DNA of 64,000 bases. Source: an uncultured Lachnospiraceae bacterium. Lineage in GTDB: Bacteria > Bacillota > Clostridia > Lachnospirales > Lachnospiraceae. The notes under the pieces were generated by a model, which was given only the letters and a program-made list of their open reading frames with translations, was not told the DNA's origin and ran no database searches. The DNA lies in NCBI GenBank assembly GCA_944383265.1, contig CALWOX010000003.1:124001-188000 (forward strand), written 5' to 3'. Shown here in pieces: positions 4,680 through 44,526 of the stretch (positions within the stretch are counted from its first letter, which is position 1; every line of letters begins with the position of its first letter). A program made the translations under genes and the position numbers.

Positions 4680-5633
4680 CTACCTTCCGCACTCCCCGTC
4701 TGTGCCTCTCATAAGAAGTATTCCGTGCCCTATAGTGTCAAGTATTACTTCAAGGCTCTCCTCCACAGCCTTGGGGCTTCCGGGAAGGTTTACTATAAGG
4801 CTCCTTCCTCTTATGGCGGACACTCCCCTTGAAAGCATTGCCCTCTTTGTATATTTCATTGACTCAGCCCTTATGGCCTCGGATATCCCGGGAACCTGCC
4901 TGTCACATACCTCAAGAGTCGCCTCAGGAGTATTGTCTCTCAAGGCCATGCCGGTGCCTCCGCTCGTTACGATCAGTTCAGCCTGTCTCTGATCGCAGAG
5001 CCTTATGAGCTCACGCTTTATTCTTTCCTTGTCATCAGGTATTATCACCCTCTCAACAACGTCAAAGCCCGCACTGCTTAAAAGCTCCTCAGCCTTCGGA
5101 CCGCTTTTGTCTTCTCTGAGCCCCTGTGATCCCTTGTCACTCATGACAACCACTGCCGCCCTTATGGGGGCATCATTCGGAGGAAGCTTTCCGGTCATTA
5201 TGTCGCCCGTCTGTATGACCCCGCCTTTAATGACCTCTGCAAACACGCCCTGGGTCGGCATTATACACTCTCCCATTCTCTTGTATATAGCGCAGTGGGA
5301 ATGACATTCCTTTCCTATCTGGGTCATTTTTAATATAACGTCTCCGCAGCTTAAAACTGTCCCCACAGGAAGGTTTCTGAAATCTATCCCCTCCACCACA
5401 AGATTTTCTCCGAAGGCTCCATCCTTCACATCGGCTCCTCTTTTGTTGAAATCAAGCACTTTGTCATAGGAAAGGAGGCTTACCTGCCTGTGCCAGTTTC
5501 CGGCATGGGCGTCACCTTCTATTCCGTAATTTACCTTAAATATTGCACTCTCCACTCTGTGTTTTTCCGTGCCTCTTTTTTCGCTTATACATATGGCGTG
5601 GACTTTTCCTTTTATAATATTCTCCACAGGCAT
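4680..5633 (-). CDS. Fusion: MOSC domain with MogA/MoaB-type molybdopterin adenylyltransferase
   Basis: 317 residues. About 1-150 is a MOSC domain: YGIEGDAHAGNWHRQVSLLS and DGAFGENLVVEGID are its conserved parts, with GKECHSHCAIY supplying cysteines. About 155-317 is a MogA/MoaB domain, with VVMSDKGSQGLREDKSGP, VTSGGTGMALRDNTPEA and the closing VNLPGSPKAVEE. Known: MogA-type proteins adenylate molybdopterin before metal insertion; MOSC domains bind the finished cofactor or sulfur carriers. Inference: the fusion couples the activation step to sulfur handling. It starts with AAAGGAGG upstream and lies 22 bases downstream of the moaA stop. Confidence 0.9.
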   Translation of the reverse strand: MPVENIIKGKVHAICISEKRGTEKHRVESAIFKVNYGIEGDAHAGNWHRQVSLLSYDKVLDFNKRGADVKDGAFGENLVVEGIDFRNLPVGTVLSCGDVILKMTQIGKECHSHCAIYKRMGECIMPTQGVFAEVIKGGVIQTGDIMTGKLPPNDAPIRAAVVVMSDKGSQGLREDKSGPKAEELLSSAGFDVVERVIIPDDKERIKRELIRLCDQRQAELIVTSGGTGMALRDNTPEATLEVCDRQVPGISEAIRAESMKYTKRAMLSRGVSAIRGRSLIVNLPGSPKAVEESLEVILDTIGHGILLMRGTDGECGR

Positions 5634-5655
5634 TAAAATACCTCCTTTGTCTGAC

Positions 5656-19262: not shown

Positions 19263-20846
19263 TTATTTTCCGCTGTCTCCGTAGTTTGACAGCACTCTTG
19301 CCGAAGGATCATCCACGTTGCAGCCCTCCCACGATCTGTTGGGCATCCAAAAGTCCGCTATCATCTCCGACTGTCCCGGATAATATTTCTCGAATATATC
19401 TCTGTACAGAAGAGATTCCTTTGTGAAGGGACGTGCGTGGTCATACTTCTTTATACCCTCCGAAAACTCCTCATCGCTGTACCTTGTCTCTGCGTATTCC
19501 TTAAGGTAATCAACCATAGAATGCCCCACAGCATCTGAAAATGCCGCCTTTTCTCTCCACAGTATGTCCTCGGGAAGCAGGCCGTCTCCTTCAAAGGCAT
19601 GCCTTAAAAGATACTTGCCCTTTCCGTATTTGTTGAGCTTAAGCTCGGGATCCACAGCCAGCACATATTTTACAAAGTCAAGATCCCCGAAAGGGACTCT
19701 TGCCTCAAGAGAGTTTACGGAAATGCACCTGTCAGCCCTCAGCACGTCATACATATGAAGCTCTCTTATCCTTTTTTGAGATTCCTCCTCGAATGCCTCG
19801 GCGGAAGGTGCAAAATCCGTATATTTGTAGCCGAAAAGCTCGTCTGATATCTCACCTGTGAGTATTACTCTTATATCCGTATTCTCATGTATGGCCTTGC
19901 ATACATGATACATACCGATGCTTGCCCTAATGGTGGTTATGTCAAAGGTCCCAAGGAGCTCTATCACACTCTCAAGTGAACCTATGACATCCTCAGGCGT
20001 CATATATACTTCCGTATGCCTGCTGCCTATAAAATCCGCAACCTCCCTTGCATACTTAAGATCTATGGCATCCTCGCTCATGCCTATGGCAAAGGTCCTT
20101 ATGGGAGTATCCTGCTCCCTCGCGGCTATGGCACAGACCAGCGAGGAATCAAGTCCTCCCGAAAGGAGAAAACCTACCTTTGAATCTGAGACAAGACGCT
20201 TTTTCACGCCCTCTGTAAGCTTGTCGTGTATGTTTTTGCATACGGCCTCAAGGTCATCGTGAATGAAGGAATCGACCTTCGTTATATCGCAGTAGCATGT
20301 AAATTTTCCGTCCTTGTAATAATGCCCGGGCGGGAAAGGCATTATCTTTTTGCAAAGCCCTGTAAGGTTTTTGGGCTCACTTGCAAGTACAAGGACTCCG
20401 TTTTTGTCATATCCGAAGTACATGGGACGTATTCCTATGGGATCCCTTGCGGCTATGAACTCGTCCTTTTCTTTGTCATATATTATGCAGACAAATTCTG
20501 CGTCAAGCATGGAAAACATGTCTGTCCCATACTCCCGATACATAGGCAAAAGTATCTCGCAGTCGCTGTCACTCTTAAAGCTGTAGCCCTTTTTCTTAAG
20601 CTCCTCTCTCAGCTTTTCAAAGCCGTATATCTCTCCGTTACAGACAGCATAGCTGCCGTCAAGCTCAAAGGGCTGCATGCCTTCCTCCGTAAGTCCCATT
20701 ACAGCAAGCCTGTGAAAGGCCAAAAGCCCGCTTCCCGTATCTGTTATCCTGCTGTCATCGGGCCCTCTTGATTCGGTTTTTGAAAAGCCCTCCTTAAACA
20801 GCTCCATGTCGTTACATATACCCAAATAGCCCATTACTGAACACAT
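19263..20846 (-). CDS. asnB: Asparagine synthetase (glutamine-hydrolysing)
   Basis: 527 residues. After Met removal the N-terminal Cys2 (MCSVMGYLG) is the glutaminase nucleophile; DGSYAVCNGEIYG is the class II glutaminase pocket. The synthetase domain has the pyrophosphate loop LLSGGLDSSLV near 235 and EARVPFGDLDFV. Known: it makes asparagine from aspartate and glutamine with ATP. It lies 69 bases after glnN, so the glutamine made by that enzyme can feed it; AGGAGG precedes its ATG. Confidence 0.96.
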   Translation of the reverse strand: MCSVMGYLGICNDMELFKEGFSKTESRGPDDSRITDTGSGLLAFHRLAVMGLTEEGMQPFELDGSYAVCNGEIYGFEKLREELKKKGYSFKSDSDCEILLPMYREYGTDMFSMLDAEFVCIIYDKEKDEFIAARDPIGIRPMYFGYDKNGVLVLASEPKNLTGLCKKIMPFPPGHYYKDGKFTCYCDITKVDSFIHDDLEAVCKNIHDKLTEGVKKRLVSDSKVGFLLSGGLDSSLVCAIAAREQDTPIRTFAIGMSEDAIDLKYAREVADFIGSRHTEVYMTPEDVIGSLESVIELLGTFDITTIRASIGMYHVCKAIHENTDIRVILTGEISDELFGYKYTDFAPSAEAFEEESQKRIRELHMYDVLRADRCISVNSLEARVPFGDLDFVKYVLAVDPELKLNKYGKGKYLLRHAFEGDGLLPEDILWREKAAFSDAVGHSMVDYLKEYAETRYSDEEFSEGIKKYDHARPFTKESLLYRDIFEKYYPGQSEMIADFWMPNRSWEGCNVDDPSARVLSNYGDSGK

Positions 20847-20915: not shown

Positions 20916-23021
20916 TTAATTGACGCTGAAAAGTATATCCGCATAGGTAGGGAAGGGCCAATAGCTCTTTTCTGTAAGCCTCTCCGCCTCATCGCAGGGA
21001 AGCCTCAGCTCGCTCATCACGGGAAGCACCTCGTCTCTTATCATCTCCGACTCCCTGATTATGTCTCCCGCATCGTGGAGCGATAAAAGCGCATCCTCCA
21101 GCTCGTCCGTCTTTGCCGCTATTTCATCCGTAAGCTTTGAGAGCCTCTTTACAAGTCCCGCCTCATATCCGCAGGAGATATCGGGATCGAGAGATTTTTT
21201 AAAGCCTGCACTCTTTGCCACATCCGCCGCGTACCGCTCTATAGCAGGCGCTATCTGAGTCCTTGCCATGCCGACCATGGTATTTGCCTCTATGACTACA
21301 GCCTTGCAATAGTTCTCAAGCATTATGTCGCATCTTGACTTTAATTCAGCTTCTGTATAGACCTTATGAGACATAAGCATATCCACATTTTTCTTGTCCA
21401 AAAGATGAGGCATGCAGTCGGGAGTCGTGCGATAGTTAAGAAGTCCTCTCTCTTTAGTGGCTACATCTGTCCAGCTCTCATCGTATCCGTTTCCGTTAAA
21501 TATAATGTGCTTGTGGTCCTTTATGGTCTTTTTTATCATCTCATGGAGCGCCTGTTCAAAATCCTCCGCACCCTCAAGCCTGTCCGCATATATCTTCAGA
21601 GACTCCGCCACAGCGCTGTTAAGCATTATGTTGGTGCAGGCAATGCTGTTTGACGATCCGAGCATACGGAATTCAAACTTGTTTCCGGTAAAGGCAAAGG
21701 GCGAGGTCCTGTTTCTGTCTGTATTGTCTCTGTTAAACTTGGGCAATACATCGACTCCCAGCTTTACTCTTGTCTTCTTCGCTCCTTCATATGGAGTATC
21801 TGTCTCTATCGCTTTTAATACAGCACTGAGCTCGTCCCCAAGGAATATGGAGACCACGGCAGGCGGTGCCTCGTTTGCCCCAAGACGATGATCGTTTCCC
21901 GCTGTTGCAACAGCTATCCTTAAGAGATCCTGATAATCATCCACAGCCTTTATGACCGCGCAAAGGAAAAGAAGGAACTGGGCATTCTCATAGGGCGTGT
22001 CGCCGGGAGACAGGAGGTTCTTTCCCGTATCTGTGGAAAGTGACCAGTTGTTGTGCTTTCCCGAACCGTTCACTCCGGCAAAGGGCTTTTCATGAAGGAG
22101 GCATACAAGACCGTGCCTTGCGGCCACCTTCTGCATCATCTCCATGGTAAGCTGGTTGTGGTCTGTGGCTATATTTACAGTCTCATATATAGGTGCAAGC
22201 TCATGCTGGGCAGGTGCCACCTCGTTGTGCTCCGTCTTTGCAGGGATACCAAGCTTCCAGAGCTCCTCGTTAAGGTCCTCCATAAAGGCTGCCACGGCAG
22301 GCTTTATAGCTCCGAAATAGTGGTCGTCCATCTCCTGTCCCTTCGGAGGCTTTGCCCCGAAAAGAGTCCTTCCGGTAAATCTGAGGTCGGGACGTTTCTC
22401 ATACATCTCCTTTGTTATAAGGAAGTATTCCTGCTCAGGGCCTACAGAGGGACGGACGCACTTTACATCCTCATTTCCGAAAAGCTTAAGTACTCTAAGA
22501 GCCTGTCTGTTGAGAGCCTCCATAGATCGAAGCAGCGGAGTCTTTTTGTCGAGGGCATTTCCGTCATATGAGCAGAAGGCCGTAGGTATGCACAGTGTCT
22601 TTCCCTTTATAAAGGCATATGAGGTGGGATCCCATGCCGTATATCCTCTCGCCTCAAAGGTGGCCCTCAGGCCTCCGCTGGGAAATGATGAAGCGTCGGG
22701 CTCGCCCTTTATAAGCTCCTTTCCGGAAAACTCCATGATAACGCCGCCGTCGGGAGAGCCCGAAATAAAGCTGTCATGCTTTTCCGCCGTGATCCCTGTG
22801 AGAGGCTGGAACCAGTGAGTATAATGAGTGGCTCCCTTTGACACCGCCCAGTCCTTCATAGCATCCGCAACGGCATTGGCTACGCCTATATCAAGCTTTG
22901 CGCCCTCGTCTATAGTCTTTTTCAAGGTGTGGTACACATCGGCTGAAAGGTGAGCCTTCATAACTCTGTCGTCAAATACGAGGCTTCCGAAATAATCAGA
23001 TACAGTAAATAAAGTTCCCAT
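20916..23021 (-). CDS. glnN: Glutamine synthetase type III
   Basis: 701 residues, the length of GSIII (types I and II are 350-470). [15 protein letters not shown] opens the type III-specific N-terminal region; [37 protein letters not shown] and FRMLGSS are the metal and substrate motifs. Known: GSIII forms double hexamers and assimilates ammonium in many anaerobes. It is the first gene of an operon with asnB, dapF and dapL, behind a leader with an intrinsic terminator and an ANTAR-type hairpin. Confidence 0.97.
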
Positions 23022-23136: not shown

Positions 23137-23197
23137 AAAAATAAAAAAAGACAAAGACGCCAATAATGCCGGTAAACATTAAAGACGTCTTTGCCTT
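23137..23197 (-). promoter_or_regulatory. glnN leader attenuator with ANTAR-type hairpin
   Basis: Minus-strand leader RNA. A terminator has 19-base arms at 23195-23177 and 23168-23150 (17 pairs, three of them wobbles counted where present; two mismatches) and an 8-base loop, followed by a T-rich tract at 23149-23137. Its 5' arm overlaps a small hairpin at 23197-23182: AAGGC, loop AAAGAC, GTCTT. The hexaloop has A at position 1 and G at 4, the known ANTAR recognition pattern. The two structures cannot form together, so a bound ANTAR protein would let transcription continue into glnN. Only one such hairpin is visible; known sites have two. Confidence 0.75.
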
Positions 23198-23218
23198 CGT
23201 TTTGCTTATTTTTGTAGT

Positions 23219-23247
23219 GTTATACACCCCTCAAAAAAATTTGTCAA
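23219..23247 (-). promoter_or_regulatory. glnN promoter
   Basis: Minus strand: -35 TTGACA (23247-23242), 17-base spacer, -10 TATAAC (23224-23219). Transcription would begin near 23212, fifteen bases before the ANTAR-type hairpin. Confidence 0.85.
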
Positions 23248-23274: not shown

Positions 23275-23303
23275 TTGACAAATCTCTTATAAAGGTGTTT
23301 AAT
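23275..23303 (+). promoter_or_regulatory. Promoter of the glutamate synthase operon
   Basis: -35 TTGACA (23275-23280), 17-base spacer, -10 TTTAAT (23298-23303). It is divergent from the glnN promoter, with only 27 bases between the two -35 boxes. Start of transcription near 23310. Confidence 0.85.
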
Positions 23304-23308
23304 ATCAG

Positions 23309-23389
23309 AAAATGAGCAAAGGCGTTCATTTTGATACATAAAGCCTGACTATGGCTTTTATGTGTCGAAATGGGCGTCTTTTTGTTTTT
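23309..23389 (+). promoter_or_regulatory. Glutamate synthase operon leader: ANTAR-type hairpin and overlapping terminator
   Basis: Hairpin AAAATGAGC, loop AAAGGC, GTTCATTTT at 23309-23332: a 9-bp stem with a hexaloop having A1 and G4, the ANTAR pattern. Its 3' half (GGCGTTCATTT, 23321-23331) can instead pair with AAATGGGCGTC at 23368-23378, directly before the tract TTTTTGTTTTT (23379-23389). A separate hairpin (23333-23366) fills the loop of that terminator. Folding one excludes the other, so ANTAR binding would cause antitermination. Confidence 0.75.
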
Positions 23390-23414
23390 AATCCATATGA
23401 AAGGAAAGAGCTGT

Positions 23415-24509
23415 ATGAGATTGGAAGGCGAGTTAAGGATCCCCTCAGGCTGCGCCATAGCCGCCGTTATATCAAGGGTGGGAAAGCGTATGTCAGGGGA
23501 AGCTGTAACAGAAGCGATGAAGCCCATGCACGATCGCTCCAACGGTCTTGGAGGAGGCTTTGCGGGCTACGGTATATATCCCGAATATAAGGAGCTCTAT
23601 GCTCTGCATATGTTTTTTGATAAAAGGGACACAAGAAAAAGCTGCGAGATGTTTTTGAAGGAGCGTTTTGAGATAGTAAAAAGCGAGCTTATCCCCACAA
23701 GGAAGATGCCCGAGATAAAGGATGAGCCTATCATATGGAGATATTTTGTGGCTCCTCTCAAATCTGTAGTAAGCTCACTTCAGACAGATGAAAAGGAATT
23801 TGTGGCCCGCACCGTAATGAAGATAAACTCTGAAATGAACGGAGCCTTTGTATTCTCCTCCGGCAAAAATATGGGAGCCTTCAAGGCCGTAGGCTTTCCG
23901 GAGGATGTGGGAAGATTTTACAGGCTTGAGGAGTATGAGGGCTATTCCTGGGCCGCCCACGGCCGCTACCCTACAAATACACCGGGATGGTGGGGAGGAG
24001 CTCATCCCTTCACGCTACTTGATTTTTCCGTCGTTCATAACGGCGAGATATCCTCCTATGACGCAAATCGCCGTTTTATAGAGATGTTCGGCTACAAATG
24101 CACACTGAAGACTGATACCGAGGTCATTACTTATATAATGGACTATCTTGTGCGTGTACAGGGTCTTAACCTTGAGGAGGCGGCAAGCGTCATCGCCGCT
24201 CCCTTTTGGAGCACCATAAGTGCAAAGAAGGATCCCGAAGAAAAGGAAAAATACACATATTTAAGGACTGTATTTCCCAGCCTTCTCATTACAGGTCCCT
24301 TCTCCATAATCCTCGGCTTTAACGGCGGGCTCATGGCATTGAACGACAGGCTCAAGCTTCGCTCCATGGTTATAGGCGAAAAGGACGACAAGGTGTTTAT
24401 AGCAAGTGAGGAGGCCGCTATACGGGCCATGGAGCCTGATGCCGAAAATATATGGGCGCCTTCAGGAGGCGAGCCTGTTATAGTCAGAGTAAAGGACGGT
24501 GCTTATTAA
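23415..24509 (+). CDS. Glutamate synthase, glutamine amidotransferase subunit (split GltB)
   Basis: About 364 residues, equal to the N-terminal class II glutaminase domain of GltB. The catalytic Cys is C13 in IPSGCAIAAV; the residues before it are a short propeptide that must be removed. HGRYPTNTPGWWGGAHPF and VVHNGEISSYDANRRF are the glutaminase pocket. Known: it frees ammonia from glutamine and passes it to the FMN domain. The start is the ATG at 23415 after AGGAAAG; an earlier ATG at 23370 lies inside the leader terminator. Its stop abuts the next gene at 24510. Confidence 0.92.
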   Translation: MRLEGELRIPSGCAIAAVISRVGKRMSGEAVTEAMKPMHDRSNGLGGGFAGYGIYPEYKELYALHMFFDKRDTRKSCEMFLKERFEIVKSELIPTRKMPEIKDEPIIWRYFVAPLKSVVSSLQTDEKEFVARTVMKINSEMNGAFVFSSGKNMGAFKAVGFPEDVGRFYRLEEYEGYSWAAHGRYPTNTPGWWGGAHPFTLLDFSVVHNGEISSYDANRRFIEMFGYKCTLKTDTEVITYIMDYLVRVQGLNLEEAASVIAAPFWSTISAKKDPEEKEKYTYLRTVFPSLLITGPFSIILGFNGGLMALNDRLKLRSMVIGEKDDKVFIASEEAAIRAMEPDAENIWAPSGGEPVIVRVKDGAY

Positions 24510-26015
24510 ATGGGTGTTGAATTTATATATCCTGAATTTGAAGTCATAAGAAATGAAAGTCGCTGCATCGCCTGCAGAGTCTGCGAGAGGCAGTGTGCGA
24601 ACGAGGTACATTATTTCTGCCCTGAGACAGGGCTTATGATGAGCGACGAATCAAAGTGCGTGGACTGTCAGCGCTGCGTATCCCTTTGTCCCACAAGGGC
24701 CTTAAAGATAGTAAAGAGCGACTGCAGCTTAAGGGAGAATGCCAACTGGAAAAGCGATACCATAAAGGAGATATACAAGCAGGCCTCAAGCGGCGGTGTG
24801 CTTCTTTCGTCAATGGGAAGCCCCAAGGAGATGCCTGTATACTGGGACAAGCTTCTGATAAACGCATCTCAGGTCACAAATCCCTCCATAGACCCATTAA
24901 GAGAGCCAATGGAGACAAAGGTTTTCCTGGGTAAAAAGCCTGAAAGGATAGAACGCGATGAAAAAGGAAGGATAAAATGTGAGCTTACCCCTCAGCTTGA
25001 GCTCTCCCTCCCTGTAATGTTTTCCGCTATGAGCTACGGCTCCATAAGCTATAACGCCCATGAATCCCTTGCAAGGGCCGCCACCGCATCAGGGACCTAC
25101 TATAACACCGGCGAGGGCGGACTGCACAAGGATTTCTATTGCTACGGACCTCATACTATAGTTCAGGTGGCCTCAGGGCGTTTCGGGGTACATGAAGAAT
25201 ATCTCAATGCAGGTGCTGCCATAGAGATAAAGATAGGCCAGGGGGCAAAGCCCGGCATCGGAGGTCATCTCCCCGGCACAAAGATCGTCGGGGACGTTTC
25301 CGCCACAAGGATGATACCCGAGGGGACCGATGCCATCTCTCCCGCTCCCCACCACGATATTTATTCCATAGAGGATCTGCGTCAGCTGGTTTACTCTCTC
25401 AAGGAGGCCACAGGCTACAGAAAGCCTGTAATAGTAAAGGTGGCTGCAGTACACAATATTTCAGCCATAGCAAGCGGTATCGCAAGGAGCGGCGCCGACA
25501 TCATCGCCATAGACGGCTTCAGAGGAGGCACCGGAGCGGCACCTACAAGGATAAGGGATAACGTGGGTATCCCCATAGAGCTTGCTCTCGCCGCAGTGGA
25601 TCAAAGGCTGAGAGACGAGGGTATAAGAAATAATGTTTCACTTGTTGTAGGTGGAAGCATAAGAAGCGCCTCCGATGTGGTAAAGGCTGTGGCTCTTGGA
25701 GCGGACGCCTGCTATATAGCCACCGCCGCCCTTCTTGCTCTCGGCTGTCACCTTTGCCGTACCTGTCAAACGGGAAAGTGTAACTGGGGCATCGCCACCC
25801 AAAGACCTGACCTCGTAAAGAGACTGAATCCTGATATCGGCAGCGAACGCCTTATAAATCTCATGACAGCTTGGAAGCATGAGATAAAGGAGCTTATGGG
25901 CGGTATGGGAATAAATTCCATTGAAGCCCTTCGGGGCAACAGGCTCATGCTCCGCGGCGTGGGACTTACGGAAAAGGAGCTTTCCATACTTGGCGTGGCA
26001 CACGCAGGGGAATAG
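24510..26015 (+). CDS. Glutamate synthase, FMN-binding subunit with N-terminal ferredoxin domain
   Basis: 501 residues. Residues 18-65 form two 4Fe-4S sites: CIACRVCERQC and CVDCQRCVSLCPT. The rest is the glutamate synthase barrel, with TGEGGLHKD, IKIGQGAKPGIGGHLPG and GGTGAAPTRIRD for FMN and 2-oxoglutarate, and GCHLCRTCQTGKCNWG for the 3Fe-4S cluster. Known: this is the archaeal-type split form, in which 2-oxoglutarate plus ammonia gives glutamate. It begins directly at the stop of the amidotransferase gene. Confidence 0.95.
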   Translation: MGVEFIYPEFEVIRNESRCIACRVCERQCANEVHYFCPETGLMMSDESKCVDCQRCVSLCPTRALKIVKSDCSLRENANWKSDTIKEIYKQASSGGVLLSSMGSPKEMPVYWDKLLINASQVTNPSIDPLREPMETKVFLGKKPERIERDEKGRIKCELTPQLELSLPVMFSAMSYGSISYNAHESLARAATASGTYYNTGEGGLHKDFYCYGPHTIVQVASGRFGVHEEYLNAGAAIEIKIGQGAKPGIGGHLPGTKIVGDVSATRMIPEGTDAISPAPHHDIYSIEDLRQLVYSLKEATGYRKPVIVKVAAVHNISAIASGIARSGADIIAIDGFRGGTGAAPTRIRDNVGIPIELALAAVDQRLRDEGIRNNVSLVVGGSIRSASDVVKAVALGADACYIATAALLALGCHLCRTCQTGKCNWGIATQRPDLVKRLNPDIGSERLINLMTAWKHEIKELMGGMGINSIEALRGNRLMLRGVGLTEKELSILGVAHAGE

Positions 26016-26045
26016 AGCCTTAAGTAAAATTTCGGAGAATAAAAT

Positions 26046-26486
26046 ATGAAACGAATATATGTTAATGAAGACCGGTGCATCGGCTGCCGGCTGTGTGAAT
26101 ATAATTGCGCTTTTGCAAACTCGGGTATGCGGGATATGGCTCTTGCACTGAAAGGAAAAACTATCTATCCGAGAATTCATGTGGAAGGAGATGACAAGAT
26201 CACCTTTGCGGTATCATGCAGGCACTGTACAGACCCGATCTGTATGAAAAGCTGCATTGCGGGAGCTATCTATGATGATAACGGCGTTATCCGCATAGAC
26301 AAAAACAAGTGCGTCGGTTGTCTTACCTGCATATTGGTCTGTCCTTACGGTGCCCTTGCAAAGGGTGAAAACGGAGTGATGCAAAAGTGCGAGCTTTGTC
26401 TCAATAATTCCTGCGGAGAGCCCGCCTGTGTAAAAGGCTGTCCCAACAGGGCCATAGTTTATGAGGAGCGAGGTGAAAGTCTGTGA
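26046..26486 (+). CDS. 4Fe-4S ferredoxin-type electron-transfer subunit
   Basis: 146 residues with several Fe-S motifs: CIGCRLCEYNC, CRHCTDPICMKSC, CVGCLTCILVCPYG and CELCLNNSCGEPACVKGCP, the four-cluster pattern of DmsB/HycB-like subunits. Lying between the FMN subunit and a FAD oxidoreductase, it probably carries electrons from NAD(P)H to the synthase. RBS GGAGAAT precedes the ATG. Its stop overlaps the next start (GTGA). Confidence 0.9.
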   Translation: MKRIYVNEDRCIGCRLCEYNCAFANSGMRDMALALKGKTIYPRIHVEGDDKITFAVSCRHCTDPICMKSCIAGAIYDDNGVIRIDKNKCVGCLTCILVCPYGALAKGENGVMQKCELCLNNSCGEPACVKGCPNRAIVYEERGESL

Positions 26487-27715
26487 ATGAATATTTGATC
26501 ATCGGAAACGGCGTGGCCGCTGCCGCCGCAACAGAAGGCATAAGAAGCGTCGACAAAGCCGGCACAATTACCATCGTCTCAGAGGAAGCTCATCCTGTGT
26601 ATTGCCGCCCGCTTATCTCCTATTACCTTGAAAAAAAGACCGATATTTCAAAAATGAATTACCGTGACAAAGATTTTTATGAGAGGAACGGCTGCAAGGT
26701 GTTTTACGGAAAAAAGGCCGTCCGCCTTGATCCCGAAAAAAAGGAGGTAAAGCTTTGTGACGGCACAGTACTTCCCTACTCAAAGGTATGCATAGCCACG
26801 GGTTCATCCCCTTTTACTCCTGATTTTCCGGGAATCGATACTGTAGATAAAAAATTCGGCTTTATGACCCTTGATGATGCTTTGTCCCTTGAAAAGGCTG
26901 TAGGAAAGGATACACGGGTATTTATCATAGGTGCGGGGCTTATAGGCCTTAAATGTGCCGAGGGATTGAGGGCAATGACAGACTCCATAACTGTATGTGA
27001 CCTTGCCGACAGGGTTCTTTCAAGCATACTTGACTCGGATTGTGCGGCTCTGATGCAGGCACACATGGAGAAAAACGGTATCCGTTTTCTTCTCTCTGAT
27101 ACCGTAGAGCGCTTCGACAAAAATAAAGCCTATATGAAGAGCGGAAGGACCGTGGATTTTGATGTTCTTGTAACAGCTGTAGGCGTAAAGGCAAACACAT
27201 CTCTTGTAAAGGATGCAGGAGGCGCGGTAAACAGAGGAATAATCACTGACGAGCATATGAGGACCTCTCTCAATGACGTGTATGCCGCAGGCGACTGCTG
27301 CGAAAGCCGTGACATATCTTCAGGGACAAGTCATATCCTCGCTATACTTCCTAATGCATACATGCAAGGCTTTGCCGCAGGCGTGAATATGGCAGGAGGC
27401 GACCGGATTTTCGATAATGCGATACCGATGAATTCGATAGGCTTTTTCAGCCTTCATGCCATGACCGCGGGAAGCTATGACGGAGAACTCATTGAAGAAA
27501 AAAATGACCGCGAGCTCATGAAGTTTTTTGTAAAGGACGGGCTTTTAAAGGGCTTTATATTTATAGGAGAGCCCTCAAAGACGGGAATATATACCTCGCT
27601 TATAAGAGAACGGATCCCACTTGACACGATAGATTTCGAGCTTCTCAAAAAAGGAGCCGACTATATGGCCTTTTCGCCTGAAACACGAAGAAAAAAATTT
27701 GGAGGTGTGGTATAA
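26483..27715 (+). CDS. FAD-dependent pyridine nucleotide oxidoreductase (glutamate synthase electron input)
   Basis: 410 residues. Two Rossmann motifs: YLIIGNGVAAAAATEGIR for FAD near the start and FIIGAGLIGLKCAEGLR for NAD(P) near 150; VYAAGDCCE closes the FAD site. Starts at a GTG overlapping the ferredoxin stop, with GGTG upstream. Known: NADH-dependent split glutamate synthases use a small flavoprotein of this fold. Inference: it oxidises NAD(P)H and feeds the adjacent ferredoxin. Confidence 0.88.
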   Translation: MNEYLIIGNGVAAAAATEGIRSVDKAGTITIVSEEAHPVYCRPLISYYLEKKTDISKMNYRDKDFYERNGCKVFYGKKAVRLDPEKKEVKLCDGTVLPYSKVCIATGSSPFTPDFPGIDTVDKKFGFMTLDDALSLEKAVGKDTRVFIIGAGLIGLKCAEGLRAMTDSITVCDLADRVLSSILDSDCAALMQAHMEKNGIRFLLSDTVERFDKNKAYMKSGRTVDFDVLVTAVGVKANTSLVKDAGGAVNRGIITDEHMRTSLNDVYAAGDCCESRDISSGTSHILAILPNAYMQGFAAGVNMAGGDRIFDNAIPMNSIGFFSLHAMTAGSYDGELIEEKNDRELMKFFVKDGLLKGFIFIGEPSKTGIYTSLIRERIPLDTIDFELLKKGADYMAFSPETRRKKFGGVV

Positions 27716-27716
27716 T

Positions 27717-28439
27717 ATGTTTTTAATTGATGCCACGGGACTTGACCACAAAAAGCTTAATGAAAAGCTTGGCAGTGTAAAGGAAAGCTGCACCATAACC
27801 GACTGTCTCGGACAGCGTTTCATAGGCGCAGGCATGTCCGATAAAAATATAGTGATAGAGGGTATCCCCGGAAATGCCCTCGGAGCATATCTGAATGGAG
27901 CAGATATCACCGTTTCGGGTAATGCCCAGGATGCCGTCGGCGATACTATGAATGACGGAAGAATAGTTGTCTTCGGCAACATAGGCGACGCTGCAGGTTA
28001 CGCCATGCGCGGCGGCAAACTCCTTATAAAAGGCAACGCAGGTTACCGTGCCGGTATCCACATGAAGGCCTATAAGGAAAAGGTTCCGCTCATGATAATC
28101 GGCGGTAAAACAGGCAGCTTTCTCGGAGAGTATCAGGCGGGAGGCATAATAATAGTCCTTGATCTGTACGGAGAAGGGAGGCCTATAGTGGGAAATTATC
28201 CCTGCACAGGTATGCACGGCGGCAAGCTGTTTTTAAGGGGAGAATGTAAGGAAATACGCTTCCCCGATCAGGTCACTGCCGTCCCTGCCGGAAAAAATGA
28301 AATAGATGAGCTCAGGGGATATCTCACGGAGTTCTGCGATATATTCGAGTTTGATCTTGAAAAGGTACTCGACTCTCCCTTCACTGTGGTAACTCCCGAC
28401 AGCAAAAATCCCTACAGGCAGATGTACGTGGCAAATTAG
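27717..28439 (+). CDS. Glutamate synthase GXGXG (alpha-subunit C-terminal) domain protein
   Basis: About 240 residues of right-handed beta-helix: repeated GNAxGAY, GNAQDAVGD, GNIGDAAGYAMRGG and GNAGYRAG, the GXGXG domain that ends large GltB. Known: it is structural and links the glutaminase and FMN domains. The start at 27717 lies one base after the previous stop, with GGAGGTG at 27701-27707; an ATG at 27699 would overlap the previous gene. Confidence 0.93.
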   Translation: MFLIDATGLDHKKLNEKLGSVKESCTITDCLGQRFIGAGMSDKNIVIEGIPGNALGAYLNGADITVSGNAQDAVGDTMNDGRIVVFGNIGDAAGYAMRGGKLLIKGNAGYRAGIHMKAYKEKVPLMIIGGKTGSFLGEYQAGGIIIVLDLYGEGRPIVGNYPCTGMHGGKLFLRGECKEIRFPDQVTAVPAGKNEIDELRGYLTEFCDIFEFDLEKVLDSPFTVVTPDSKNPYRQMYVAN

Positions 28440-28458: not shown

Positions 28459-29670
28459 ATGAAGTATTCAAAAGATGAAGTTATACAGTTTGTCATGGAG
28501 GACGATGTAAAATTTATACGTCTTGCCTTCTGTGATGTTTTCGGCAGACAAAAAAACATTTCCATAATGCCTGAGGAGCTTAAAAGGGCTTTTGAATACG
28601 GCATAGCCTTTGATGCCTCCGCCATAACAGGCTTCGGAGATGAGACCTACTCCGATCTCCTCCTTAAGCCCGATCCCGAAACATTGATGCAGCTTCCATG
28701 GAGGCCCGAGCACGGAAAGGTGGTAAGGATGTTCTCCTCTATCACCTATCCTGACGGAAGGCCCTTTGAATGCGATACGAGAAGTTTTCTTAAAAAGGCT
28801 ATGTCTGACGCTTCAAATGCCGGCTACTCATTTTATTTCGGCTCGGAGCAGGAGTTTTATCTTTTTGAGACGGATGATGAGGGAAATCCCACAAAAAGGC
28901 CCTATGACAGGGCGGGCTACATGGATATTGCCCCTGATGATAAGGGGGAAAATATACGTCGTGAGATCTGTCTCACCCTTGAGCAAATGGGCATATATCC
29001 CGAGAGGTCACATCACGAGGAGGGTCCCGGACAAAATGAGATAGATTTCAGATACTCCGATGCTCTTACCGCCGCGGACAATGCCATGACATTTCAGACT
29101 GTGGTAAAGACCGTGTCAAGGAGAAACGGCATCTTTGCGGACTTTTCCGCAAAGCCCTTAAAGGACGCCCCCGGAAACGGATTCCACATAAATATGTCTG
29201 TACAGCCCTGCGAGGGGACAGAAAATCTCAAGTATGTAATTGCAGGCATACTTGATAAGGTTGAGGATATGACGGCATTCTTAAATCCCACAGAAGCCTC
29301 CTACAAGCGCTTTGGTTCAAATAAGGCCCCCGGATACGTCTCCTGGTCTGATGAAAACCGCTCACAGCTTGTACGTGTGCCTGCGGCTGTAGGCGAATAT
29401 CGCAGAGCGGAGCTGAGATCTCCCGATCCCACAGCAAATCCTTATCTTGCCTTCGGACTTATGATATATGCGGGCCTTTACGGTATAGAAAATAAGCTTC
29501 CTCTCCCCGAGCCTGCAAACATAAATCTGTTCAGGGCTGATGATGCTACACTCTCCCGTTTTAAAAGGCTTCCTCAAAATCTCTTCGAGGCATGCAGGAT
29601 AGCCTCATCAAGCGAGTTTATAAGGAAGCATATGCCTGATGCCATCACATCCATGTACTGCGGAAGATAA
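28459..29670 (+). CDS. glnA: Glutamine synthetase type I, short form
   Basis: 403 residues, against 440-470 for the usual type I. The active motifs are complete: GSEQEFYLFE, HHEEGPGQNEIDF, PGNGFHINMS, FGSNKAPGYVSWSDENRS and AELRSPDPTANPYLAFG. The shortening is toward the C-terminus and internal loops; the adenylylation loop is absent. Known: it makes glutamine from glutamate and ammonia, the substrate of the synthase in this operon. It directly precedes the ANTAR gene by 105 bases, and glnN nearby is a second, type III enzyme. Confidence 0.94.
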   Translation: MKYSKDEVIQFVMEDDVKFIRLAFCDVFGRQKNISIMPEELKRAFEYGIAFDASAITGFGDETYSDLLLKPDPETLMQLPWRPEHGKVVRMFSSITYPDGRPFECDTRSFLKKAMSDASNAGYSFYFGSEQEFYLFETDDEGNPTKRPYDRAGYMDIAPDDKGENIRREICLTLEQMGIYPERSHHEEGPGQNEIDFRYSDALTAADNAMTFQTVVKTVSRRNGIFADFSAKPLKDAPGNGFHINMSVQPCEGTENLKYVIAGILDKVEDMTAFLNPTEASYKRFGSNKAPGYVSWSDENRSQLVRVPAAVGEYRRAELRSPDPTANPYLAFGLMIYAGLYGIENKLPLPEPANINLFRADDATLSRFKRLPQNLFEACRIASSSEFIRKHMPDAITSMYCGR

Positions 29671-29775: not shown

Positions 29776-30360
29776 ATGAGTCTGAGAGAGCGCATTTACA
29801 GTGTTTTGTCAGTTTCCTCATCTCAAAAATTTGATGAAGCCCTTGGAGAGCTGATGCCCAAAACAAGGTACAGCCCTGTAATTACCGTAAAAAGCATAAG
29901 CCTTGCAAAGCGCGCCCTCTCCGAGCGCTCTTTCGATTTCCTTATTATAAACTCCCCTCTTCCCGACGGCACGGGTGAACGCTTTGCCATAGACTGCGCA
30001 GACACATCAAACACTGCCGTCCTCCTTATGGTAAAGGCCGATATACATGATGATGTACATGAAAAGGTTTCAGAATACGGAGTGTTCACCCTTCCGAAGC
30101 CTGTGTCAAGACTGACTGTAGCCCTTGCTCTCGGTTGGATGGAGAGTGCATCTGAAAGACTCAAAAAAGCCGAGAAAAGAACTCTCTCCGTTAAAGAAAA
30201 AATGGAGGAGATAAGGACTGTCAACAGGGCAAAATGGCTCCTCATAAGCGAGCTTAAAATGACAGAGCCCGAGGCCCACAGATATATAGAAAAGCAGGCT
30301 ATGGATCGCTGCATTACAAGAAAAGAGGTAGCAAGAGAAATAATAAAGCTATACTCCTGA
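29776..30360 (+). CDS. ANTAR-domain RNA-binding antiterminator with degenerate receiver
   Basis: 194 residues. About 1-120 has the receiver fold but lacks its acidic pair (IYSVLSVSSSQ) and has Asn where the phosphoacceptor Asp should be (FLIINSPLPDGTG); the Lys of LPKPV remains. About 135-194 is ANTAR: NRAKWLLISELKMTEPEAHR and a following KEVAREII. Known: ANTAR proteins bind paired hexaloop hairpins and block terminators. Inference: it reads the two leaders at 23137-23197 and 23309-23389. No histidine kinase is nearby, so control by a protein partner or ligand is likelier than phosphorylation. RBS GGAAGGAGGG. Confidence 0.92.
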   Translation: MSLRERIYSVLSVSSSQKFDEALGELMPKTRYSPVITVKSISLAKRALSERSFDFLIINSPLPDGTGERFAIDCADTSNTAVLLMVKADIHDDVHEKVSEYGVFTLPKPVSRLTVALALGWMESASERLKKAEKRTLSVKEKMEEIRTVNRAKWLLISELKMTEPEAHRYIEKQAMDRCITRKEVAREIIKLYS

Positions 30361-44241: not shown

Positions 44242-44526
44242 AAAAAACCCGGACAGTCTTAATAACTGTCCGGGACGAATATCTTAAATAAAATATCCGC
44301 GGTACCACCCGCCATTGGCATCTCTGCCCTCTTGTCCATATACCATCATATATGCCGCCCTTTAACGATTGCGGATTTCGTCGCTCCATACTATTTTATT
44401 CCGGAGCGCCCTCTAAAGCCCATTCAACTATACCCTCCGTACCGCCATCACACCATCGGCGACTCTCTCTGACTTCAAAATATAGCCTACTTACTCTTTA
44501 TCAACGGTTTGTCATGTTTGATTGTT
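44242..44526 (-). promoter_or_regulatory. Tryptophan T-box riboswitch leader
   Basis: Minus strand. Stem I contains the AG-box region and a distal loop typical of T-boxes near 44440-44470. The specifier loop reads TGAATGGGC, with TGG at 44422-44420, a tryptophan codon. The T-box sequence itself (GGTGGTACCGCGG, preceded by AATGGCG) spans 44316-44297. The terminator is a 10-pair stem, CCCGGACAGT (44274-44265) with ACTGTCCGGG (44257-44248), and a run of T at 44247-44242. Uncharged tRNA-Trp would favour the antiterminator and turn on trpXYZ. Confidence 0.94.

Follow-up and report, generated by a model that had tools for sequence, protein, structure and literature searches.

Organization of the glutamate synthase operon

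The stretch of DNA analyzed in this study (the window, 64 kb in length) was found to contain an operon whose genes were read by Pfam as a split glutamate synthase, glnA, and ANTAR. The seven genes are co-directional and were found in the order amidotransferase, FMN synthase domain, Fe-S protein, oxidoreductase, GXGXG domain, glnA, and ANTAR. A glutamine synthetase gene lies divergently. The genes of the locus are as follows.

20916..23021, minus strand: GSIII, type III glutamine synthetase, divergent gene and second predicted target (Pfam GSIII_N)
23415..24509, plus strand: class-II glutamine amidotransferase part of the split glutamate synthase, first gene of the operon (Pfam GATase_2)
24510..28439, plus strand: other split glutamate synthase genes, namely the FMN-binding synthase domain, Fe-S protein, pyridine nucleotide oxidoreductase, and GXGXG domain (Pfam)
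28459..29670, plus strand: glnA, glutamine synthetase, directly 5' of ANTAR (Pfam; neighborhood in relatives)
29776..30360, plus strand: ANTAR protein, final gene of the operon, with a pseudo-receiver (Asn59 at the phosphoacceptor position), a long helix, and an ANTAR domain (Pfam ANTAR)

The ANTAR gene (29776-30360) was the final one of the seven co-directional genes, as an earlier note on this DNA had stated. The gap between glnA and ANTAR is 105 nt long and contains a TATAAT-like stretch. A consensus scan of the gaps between the seven operon genes, the 105-nt gap included, found no plus-strand promoter or terminator; this is weak evidence, because neither the promoter nor the terminator of the leader itself was picked up by the scan. 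Judged from their spacing, the seven genes would form one transcript. The genome of the organism (2.3 Mb, 97.5% complete) gave a single ANTAR match.

Alternative folds in the leader of the operon

The leader of the operon contained a promoter, a hexaloop hairpin, and an intrinsic terminator.

23275..23303, plus strand: TTGACA-17-TTTAAT, promoter serving the glt-glnA-ANTAR operon, with its -10 box 14 nt ahead of A1 of the hexaloop (sequence; own-genome pattern match; spacing in relatives)
23309..23332, plus strand: predicted antiterminator, a lone 9-bp hairpin whose hexaloop AAAGGC occupies 23318-23323 and whose predicted beginning lies at about +1 (sequence, conservation, covariation)
23318..23390, plus strand: intrinsic terminator made up of hairpin 23318-23381 and a U tract that begins at 23379 (folding)

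The arms of the hexaloop hairpin are AAAATGAGC (23309-23317) and GTTCATTTT (23324-23332), which form nine pairs, one of them G.U. The 5' arm of the terminator hairpin (23318-23381) consists of the hexaloop and its 3' arm, and this hairpin enters TTTTTGTTTTT from 23379. The earlier note had described a 9-bp hairpin with loop AAAGGC and a terminator that exclude one another; its coordinates, pair number, and loop were all correct when the sequence was read again, and the exclusion follows from the reuse of the loop and 3' arm by the terminator. It had also proposed an energy comparison of the two folds, which for 23309-23390 gave -38.7 kcal/mol for the terminator state and -24.1 kcal/mol for the hexaloop state. 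Beyond that note, the TTGACA-17-TTTAAT promoter (23275-23303) puts the predicted transcript start near 23309-23311.

The leader from 23300 to 23420 was found to have a folding energy of -42.3 kcal/mol, against -22.1 +/- 3.2 for shuffled sequences, none of which was as good (0/200). When growing transcripts from 23309 were folded every 6 nt, the hexaloop hairpin was the best fold between 24 and 60 nt and the terminator fold from 66 nt; binding would therefore have about 40 nt available, a figure that carries no information on whether the protein has time to bind. Among the 12 hairpins with a six-nt loop that overlap strong terminators in the window, A1 and G4 were present together in two, which are the glt and GSIII leaders. 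With looser limits, a third A1+G4 hairpin was found at 1089-1104, overlapping a weak hairpin of -9.5 kcal/mol. The promoter and hexaloop pattern gave two matches in the organism's own genome, both in this intergenic region, and one in the reversed control. A loose hexaloop pattern was dropped, as it gave 1160+928 matches in the same genome against 1021+1000 in the reversed control. Rfam searches with strict and with permissive settings yielded no credible match in the leader. Elsewhere in the window, a T-box leader was found at 44268-44513 (minus strand) with an Rfam score of 109.2.

The leader of the divergent GSIII gene, also beyond the earlier note, was found to be built on the same design.

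23219..23247, minus strand: TTGACA-17-TATAAC, promoter serving the divergent GSIII gene, with its -10 box 26 nt ahead of A1 (sequence; own-genome pattern match)
23181..23198, minus strand: second single hexaloop hairpin, GAAGGC[AAAGAC]GTCTTT (hairpin scan, folding)
23143..23202, minus strand: intrinsic terminator of the GSIII leader, overlapping its hexaloop hairpin (folding)

The terminator of this leader has an energy of about -28 kcal/mol, and the hexaloop stem comes 20 nt after the -10 box. The glt leader is thus of the tight type (14 nt), whereas the GSIII leader, with 26 nt, is longer and is still without room for a first hairpin. In some GSIII leaders of relatives, tandem hexaloop-terminator units were found 56-80 nt apart (12 pairs among 138 units). 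Such "double gate" cases are seen on the minus strand of L045 (14076-13971), on the plus strand of L262 (about 5500-5650), and in GSIII leaders at several loci.

Conservation and covariation of the hexaloop hairpin

The 100 scanned sources were the window, 19 regions of relatives picked after 120 genomes of the family had been searched, and 80 loci of public genomes (the best 80 of at least 525 relatives). In these sources, 475 hairpins with any 6-nt loop were found to overlap a strong terminator, the loop being left unselected. A1+G4 accounted for 166 of them, and the other fifteen loop classes for 16-36 each, so that A1+G4 was about eightfold over their mean. The terminator overlap was itself a selection criterion in the relatives. 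A promoter score of at least 9 was found in 128 of 164 A1+G4 units with 130 nt of upstream sequence and in 35 of 308 others. In the control of 18 eut regions, A1+G4 was without enrichment (23/227), and two other classes likewise gave 23. Around the ethanolamine ammonia-lyase genes of L185 and L199 (minus strand), clear dual-hexaloop leaders were seen, with 19 nt from A1 to A1.

A set of 94 leaders was defined by A1+G4, a terminator of -14 kcal/mol or lower, a promoter score of at least 9, and 8-22 nt from the -10 box to A1; 71 of 165 A1+G4 units lay outside this cut. The closing pair was C-G in 92 of the 94 promoter-proximal leaders. The second pair from the loop was G.U in 87/94 one-hexaloop leaders and in 5/15 dual leaders. 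This difference may reflect ancestry; the G.U pair may also make the antiterminator less competitive with the terminator, or be recognized by the protein. Over 8 stem pairs and 65 distinct rows, covariation gave 114 double-change cells against 51 +/- 7.5, a value reached in 0/500 shuffles. Much of this total is the difference between two leader types and not many independent events. Within the AGGC subtype the count was 13 against 6.0 (0/500 shuffles), and within the GAGC subtype it was weak, at 5 against 2.4, with 26/500 shuffles reaching the double-change count. The earlier note had treated loss of the hexaloop hairpin in relatives as evidence against its reading and had suggested a covariation check of the stem; the hairpin was found to be kept and the stem to covary.

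Behind 93 promoter-proximal units (a slightly different cut), the genes were gltGAT, the split amidotransferase, in 43 cases, GSIII in 30, glnA in 9, and others in 11. In the window, asnB (19263-20846, minus strand) comes after GSIII, and in the relatives L061, L242, and L291 a one-hexaloop leader has asnB as the closest query gene behind it. Asparagine synthesis may therefore belong to the regulon.

Presence of one hairpin instead of two

The distance from the -10 box to A1 was 14 nt in 44 of the 94 leaders and 15 nt in 31 more (75/94 together), and the distance from the -10 box to the stem was 6 or 7 nt in 43/94. The hexaloop leaders of Lachnospiraceae bacterium 3-1 and Mediterraneibacter massiliensis (L092, L110) both belong to the 15-nt group. 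Transcription usually starts 6-7 nt past the -10 box. With 14-15 nt to A1, the hairpin therefore begins near the predicted +1. When +1 was put 7 nt past the -10 box, one or more of the outermost pairs in the extended stem preceded +1 in 54/94 leaders, by one base in 27.

No A1/G4 hairpin of at least 4 bp was found within 60 nt upstream in any of the 94 leaders, against a mean of 3.7 for the other loop classes. With a 3-bp limit, 4/94 leaders had one, against a mean of 5.9. A downstream A1/G4 hairpin of at least 4 bp was found in 8/94 leaders against a mean of 6.9, which is no excess. The two hairpins joined by a short linker that mark a dual-hexaloop motif were absent from these leaders. The positive control consisted of 40 regions that surround ANTAR genes in many families of the phylum. 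Control leaders with 40-72 nt from promoter to A1 contained an upstream A1/G4 hairpin in 12/19 cases, against an average of 0.67 for other classes; the corresponding counts were 0/17 at 39 nt or less, 1/6 at more than 72 nt, and 2/12 for leaders without a good promoter. In the clade set, no upstream A1/G4 hairpin was found at any distance (0/138) or at 22 nt or less (0/92). Two-hairpin targets are detected where room exists, and the one-hairpin leaders are therefore a separate architecture. The view of the earlier note, that only one hairpin is present and that this is a simpler variant, was upheld by the upstream count of 0/94 together with the control values of 12/19 and 0/17.

A slower terminator as a replacement for the first hairpin was rejected, since the median distance from hairpin end to U tract was 36 nt in single leaders (n=94) and 37 nt in dual leaders (n=15; p=0.52). 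Stems were 7 bp long in single and 5 bp in dual hairpins, a difference that is biased because the minimum stem length used in collecting the hairpins was 5 bp for the single set and 4 for the dual set. In one-hexaloop leaders of several other families (L246, L247, L250, L252, L256, L261, and L264), a GTATAC-type palindrome was seen by eye just 5' of the -35 region; it is possibly an operator for a second regulator.

The ANTAR protein

The ANTAR protein matched Pfam ANTAR (PF03861) with 61.3 bits, the curated cut-off being 27.3. In profile searches against solved structures, Rv1626, EutV, AmiR, and NasR were found to match it. Its predicted model had a mean pLDDT of 90.3, and the top query-normalized TM-score among the 50 matches listed was 0.70, for RNA-bound EutV. 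An alignment of 99 sequences was made from the window and 98 of the 99 relative loci, one partial gene being omitted. The phosphoacceptor Asp was replaced by Asn in 98/99 aligned sequences, including the window (Asn59), and phosphorylation is therefore not expected; the receiver thus was without the Asp that characterizes a response regulator. The position of the EutV RNA-contact residue Met172 was Met in 99/99 sequences, and that of Tyr164 was His in 99/99, as in AmiR. glnA was found within 400 nt upstream of ANTAR at 18/19 and 75/80 loci.

In the phylum set, L262, L264, and L282, with leaders at 14-18 nt, have the Asn/His form, and L254, with one leader at 19 nt, is without it. L257 and L263 have the Asn/His form, and none of their leaders was classed as single. 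This form is absent from all 12 dual-leader loci, among which L249 has His with Asp. The distant ANTAR proteins of 11 further loci of the family (L029-L039) contained Gly at the phosphosite in 11/11 cases and His at the other position in 10. Their sequences suggest a second kind of pseudo-receiver, and it would therefore be the loss of Asp, and not Asn as such, that goes with the family.

Distribution in the family and the phylum

The strict promoter and hexaloop pattern matched 84 times, in 59 of the 120 family genomes, and its reversed control matched 8 times. It misses the organism's own genome, where the -10 boxes deviate. The pattern was found in 56/105 genomes with a match to this ANTAR protein and in 3/15 without one (Fisher p 0.025), a modest link. 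The one-hexaloop variant is conserved over many genera of the family. A similar pattern showed no enrichment in the phylum, with 13 matches in 11 of 149 genomes against 20 in the reversed control. Single phylum cases beside ANTAR genes are convincing, chiefly genome G172 of another family, which has the same divergent pair (L262).

Discussion

In our study, the glt leader is very probably an ANTAR-controlled transcription attenuator of the one-hexaloop type. Its ANTAR-type working is well supported, and the anatomy of the leaders strongly implies that one hexaloop suffices. Points that speak against this reading are the need of EutV for its first hairpin (PMC3369931), the pattern matches in three of the 15 family genomes that gave no match to this ANTAR protein, the lack of enrichment in the phylum, the failure of the strict pattern in the organism's own genome, the stem pairs that precede +1 in 54/94 leaders, and the 20 nt before the stem in the GSIII leader. 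RNA polymerase would start at about 23309-23311, and the hexaloop hairpin would therefore be the first structure able to form. An active ANTAR dimer would grip the loop through G4, as in the solved EutV complex, and hold the hairpin; the loop and 3' arm would then be unavailable to the terminator and the glt-glnA-ANTAR operon would be transcribed. With ANTAR inactive, the longer terminator hairpin would take over within about 40 nt and transcription would stop. The same protein would act on the GSIII leader and, being made from the operon that it opens, would form a positive loop. Because the phosphoacceptor Asp is missing, control of the protein probably lies with a partner or ligand, in the way that AmiC controls AmiR. 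The leading candidate for the partner is the neighbor-encoded GlnA; from the neighborhood, we infer that GlnA, perhaps in its feedback-inhibited form, may gate the ANTAR protein.

The leaders share with those of the EutV/eut system of Enterococcus faecalis the A1/G4 hexaloop, the closing C-G pair, the overlap with the terminator 5' arm, and a receiver-ANTAR protein. Unlike the leaders studied here, with one hexaloop near +1 and a pseudo-receiver, eut needs two hairpins, a 5-12 nt linker, and a phosphorylated receiver. Both eut hairpins have been called essential; eutP induction is lost or lowered when the first hairpin is deleted or the loops are mutated, and the linker length matters (PMC3369931). 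As described for the EutV structure, one dimer holds one hexaloop, the minimal site is one hexaloop, and the dimer is thought to visit both hexaloops in turn (PMC8934654). The same source expects lone hexaloops where polymerase imposes no time limit and calls for further work (PMC8934654). Predicted ANTAR targets at glutamate synthase genes were already known, found with a two-hairpin model (PMC3369931). The predicted nitrogen-gene targets, e.g., of Desulfotomaculum (Ramesh et al., 2012, PMC3369931), are similar in their metabolic genes and terminator overlap, but come from a two-hairpin covariance model that, as described there, is not built for one-hairpin leaders (PMC3369931). ANTAR antitermination and nitrogen-gene targets are thus known, and the one-hexaloop variant appears to be new. 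In the open literature, among the matches listed, we recognized no report of one-hexaloop terminator leaders or of this clade, and one may exist elsewhere.

AmiR of the AmiR-AmiC system of Pseudomonas aeruginosa is likewise a pseudo-receiver ANTAR protein, under partner control and not phosphorylation (PMC8934654). Unlike here, its partner is an amide receptor, and the amiE leader is described as having two hairpins (PMC3369931). AmiR also resembles the window protein in the His at the EutV Tyr164 position. NitR of Clostridium saccharobutylicum, encoded beside glnA, presumably represents the same glnA-ANTAR neighborhood in a clostridium. The BglG/SacY-type antiterminators are unrelated to ANTAR systems in both protein and RNA. 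In their RAT systems, as is predicted here, a single protein-held hairpin excludes the terminator (PMC3369931).

A canonical dual-hexaloop target, with a first hairpin that has degenerated or sits 5' of the predicted start, is an unlikely reading. It agrees with the two hairpins of the described ANTAR targets (PMC3369931, PMC8164766; the latter describes them as dual stem-loops) and with the four leaders that gain an upstream hairpin at the 3-bp limit. Those four are fewer than the mean of the other classes, as is the count of zero at 4 bp or more; the predicted promoter leaves no room for a first hairpin, and the method detects one where room exists. Less likely still, the terminator could be an attenuator run by another factor (a leader peptide, a riboswitch, or another RNA-binding protein), the A1/G4 loop being incidental. 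The Rfam result bears on this in neither direction, whereas the eightfold excess of A1+G4, the nearly constant closing C-G, the ANTAR gene inside the operon, and the nitrogen genes downstream argue against it.

Two hexaloops might still be required and be supplied in trans by divergent nascent RNAs or by tandem units, which we regard as slightly more remote again. Divergent pairs are present here and in L041, L042, L043, and L262, the 12 tandem pairs lie 56-80 nt apart, and the EutV crystal contains two hexaloops contributed by separate RNA molecules, although the authors find trans bridging unlikely (PMC8934654). Each tandem unit has its own terminator, and the glnA leaders of L085 and L296 are the single strict-pattern match on their contigs, as scanned at the locus. 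A chance hairpin before an ordinary terminator is hardly credible: 5-bp A1/G4 hairpins near weak terminators do arise by chance, e.g., at 1089-1104, but the conservation and covariation across relatives stand against it. The attenuator of the one-hexaloop type is therefore retained as the preferred reading.

The leaders bear on a conflict between eut genetics, which needs both hairpins (PMC3369931), and the EutV structure, in which a dimer holds one hairpin at a time (PMC8934654). Natural leaders with one hexaloop directly on the terminator are a test case for it. Published target searches, as described, demand two hairpins and would miss the one-hexaloop class (PMC3369931, PMC8164766). It is possible, and we propose it tentatively, that a class of leaders antiterminates with one hexaloop at the first transcribed bases, so that the two-hairpin rule is not general, and that it is paired with an unphosphorylatable ANTAR protein, whose phosphosite residue is Asn or Gly and whose loop-stacking residue is mostly His, gated directly by the adjacent-encoded glutamine synthetase. 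The leaders predict control of GS-GOGAT nitrogen assimilation in many members of the family, with a direct signal from GlnA to RNA as a possibility.
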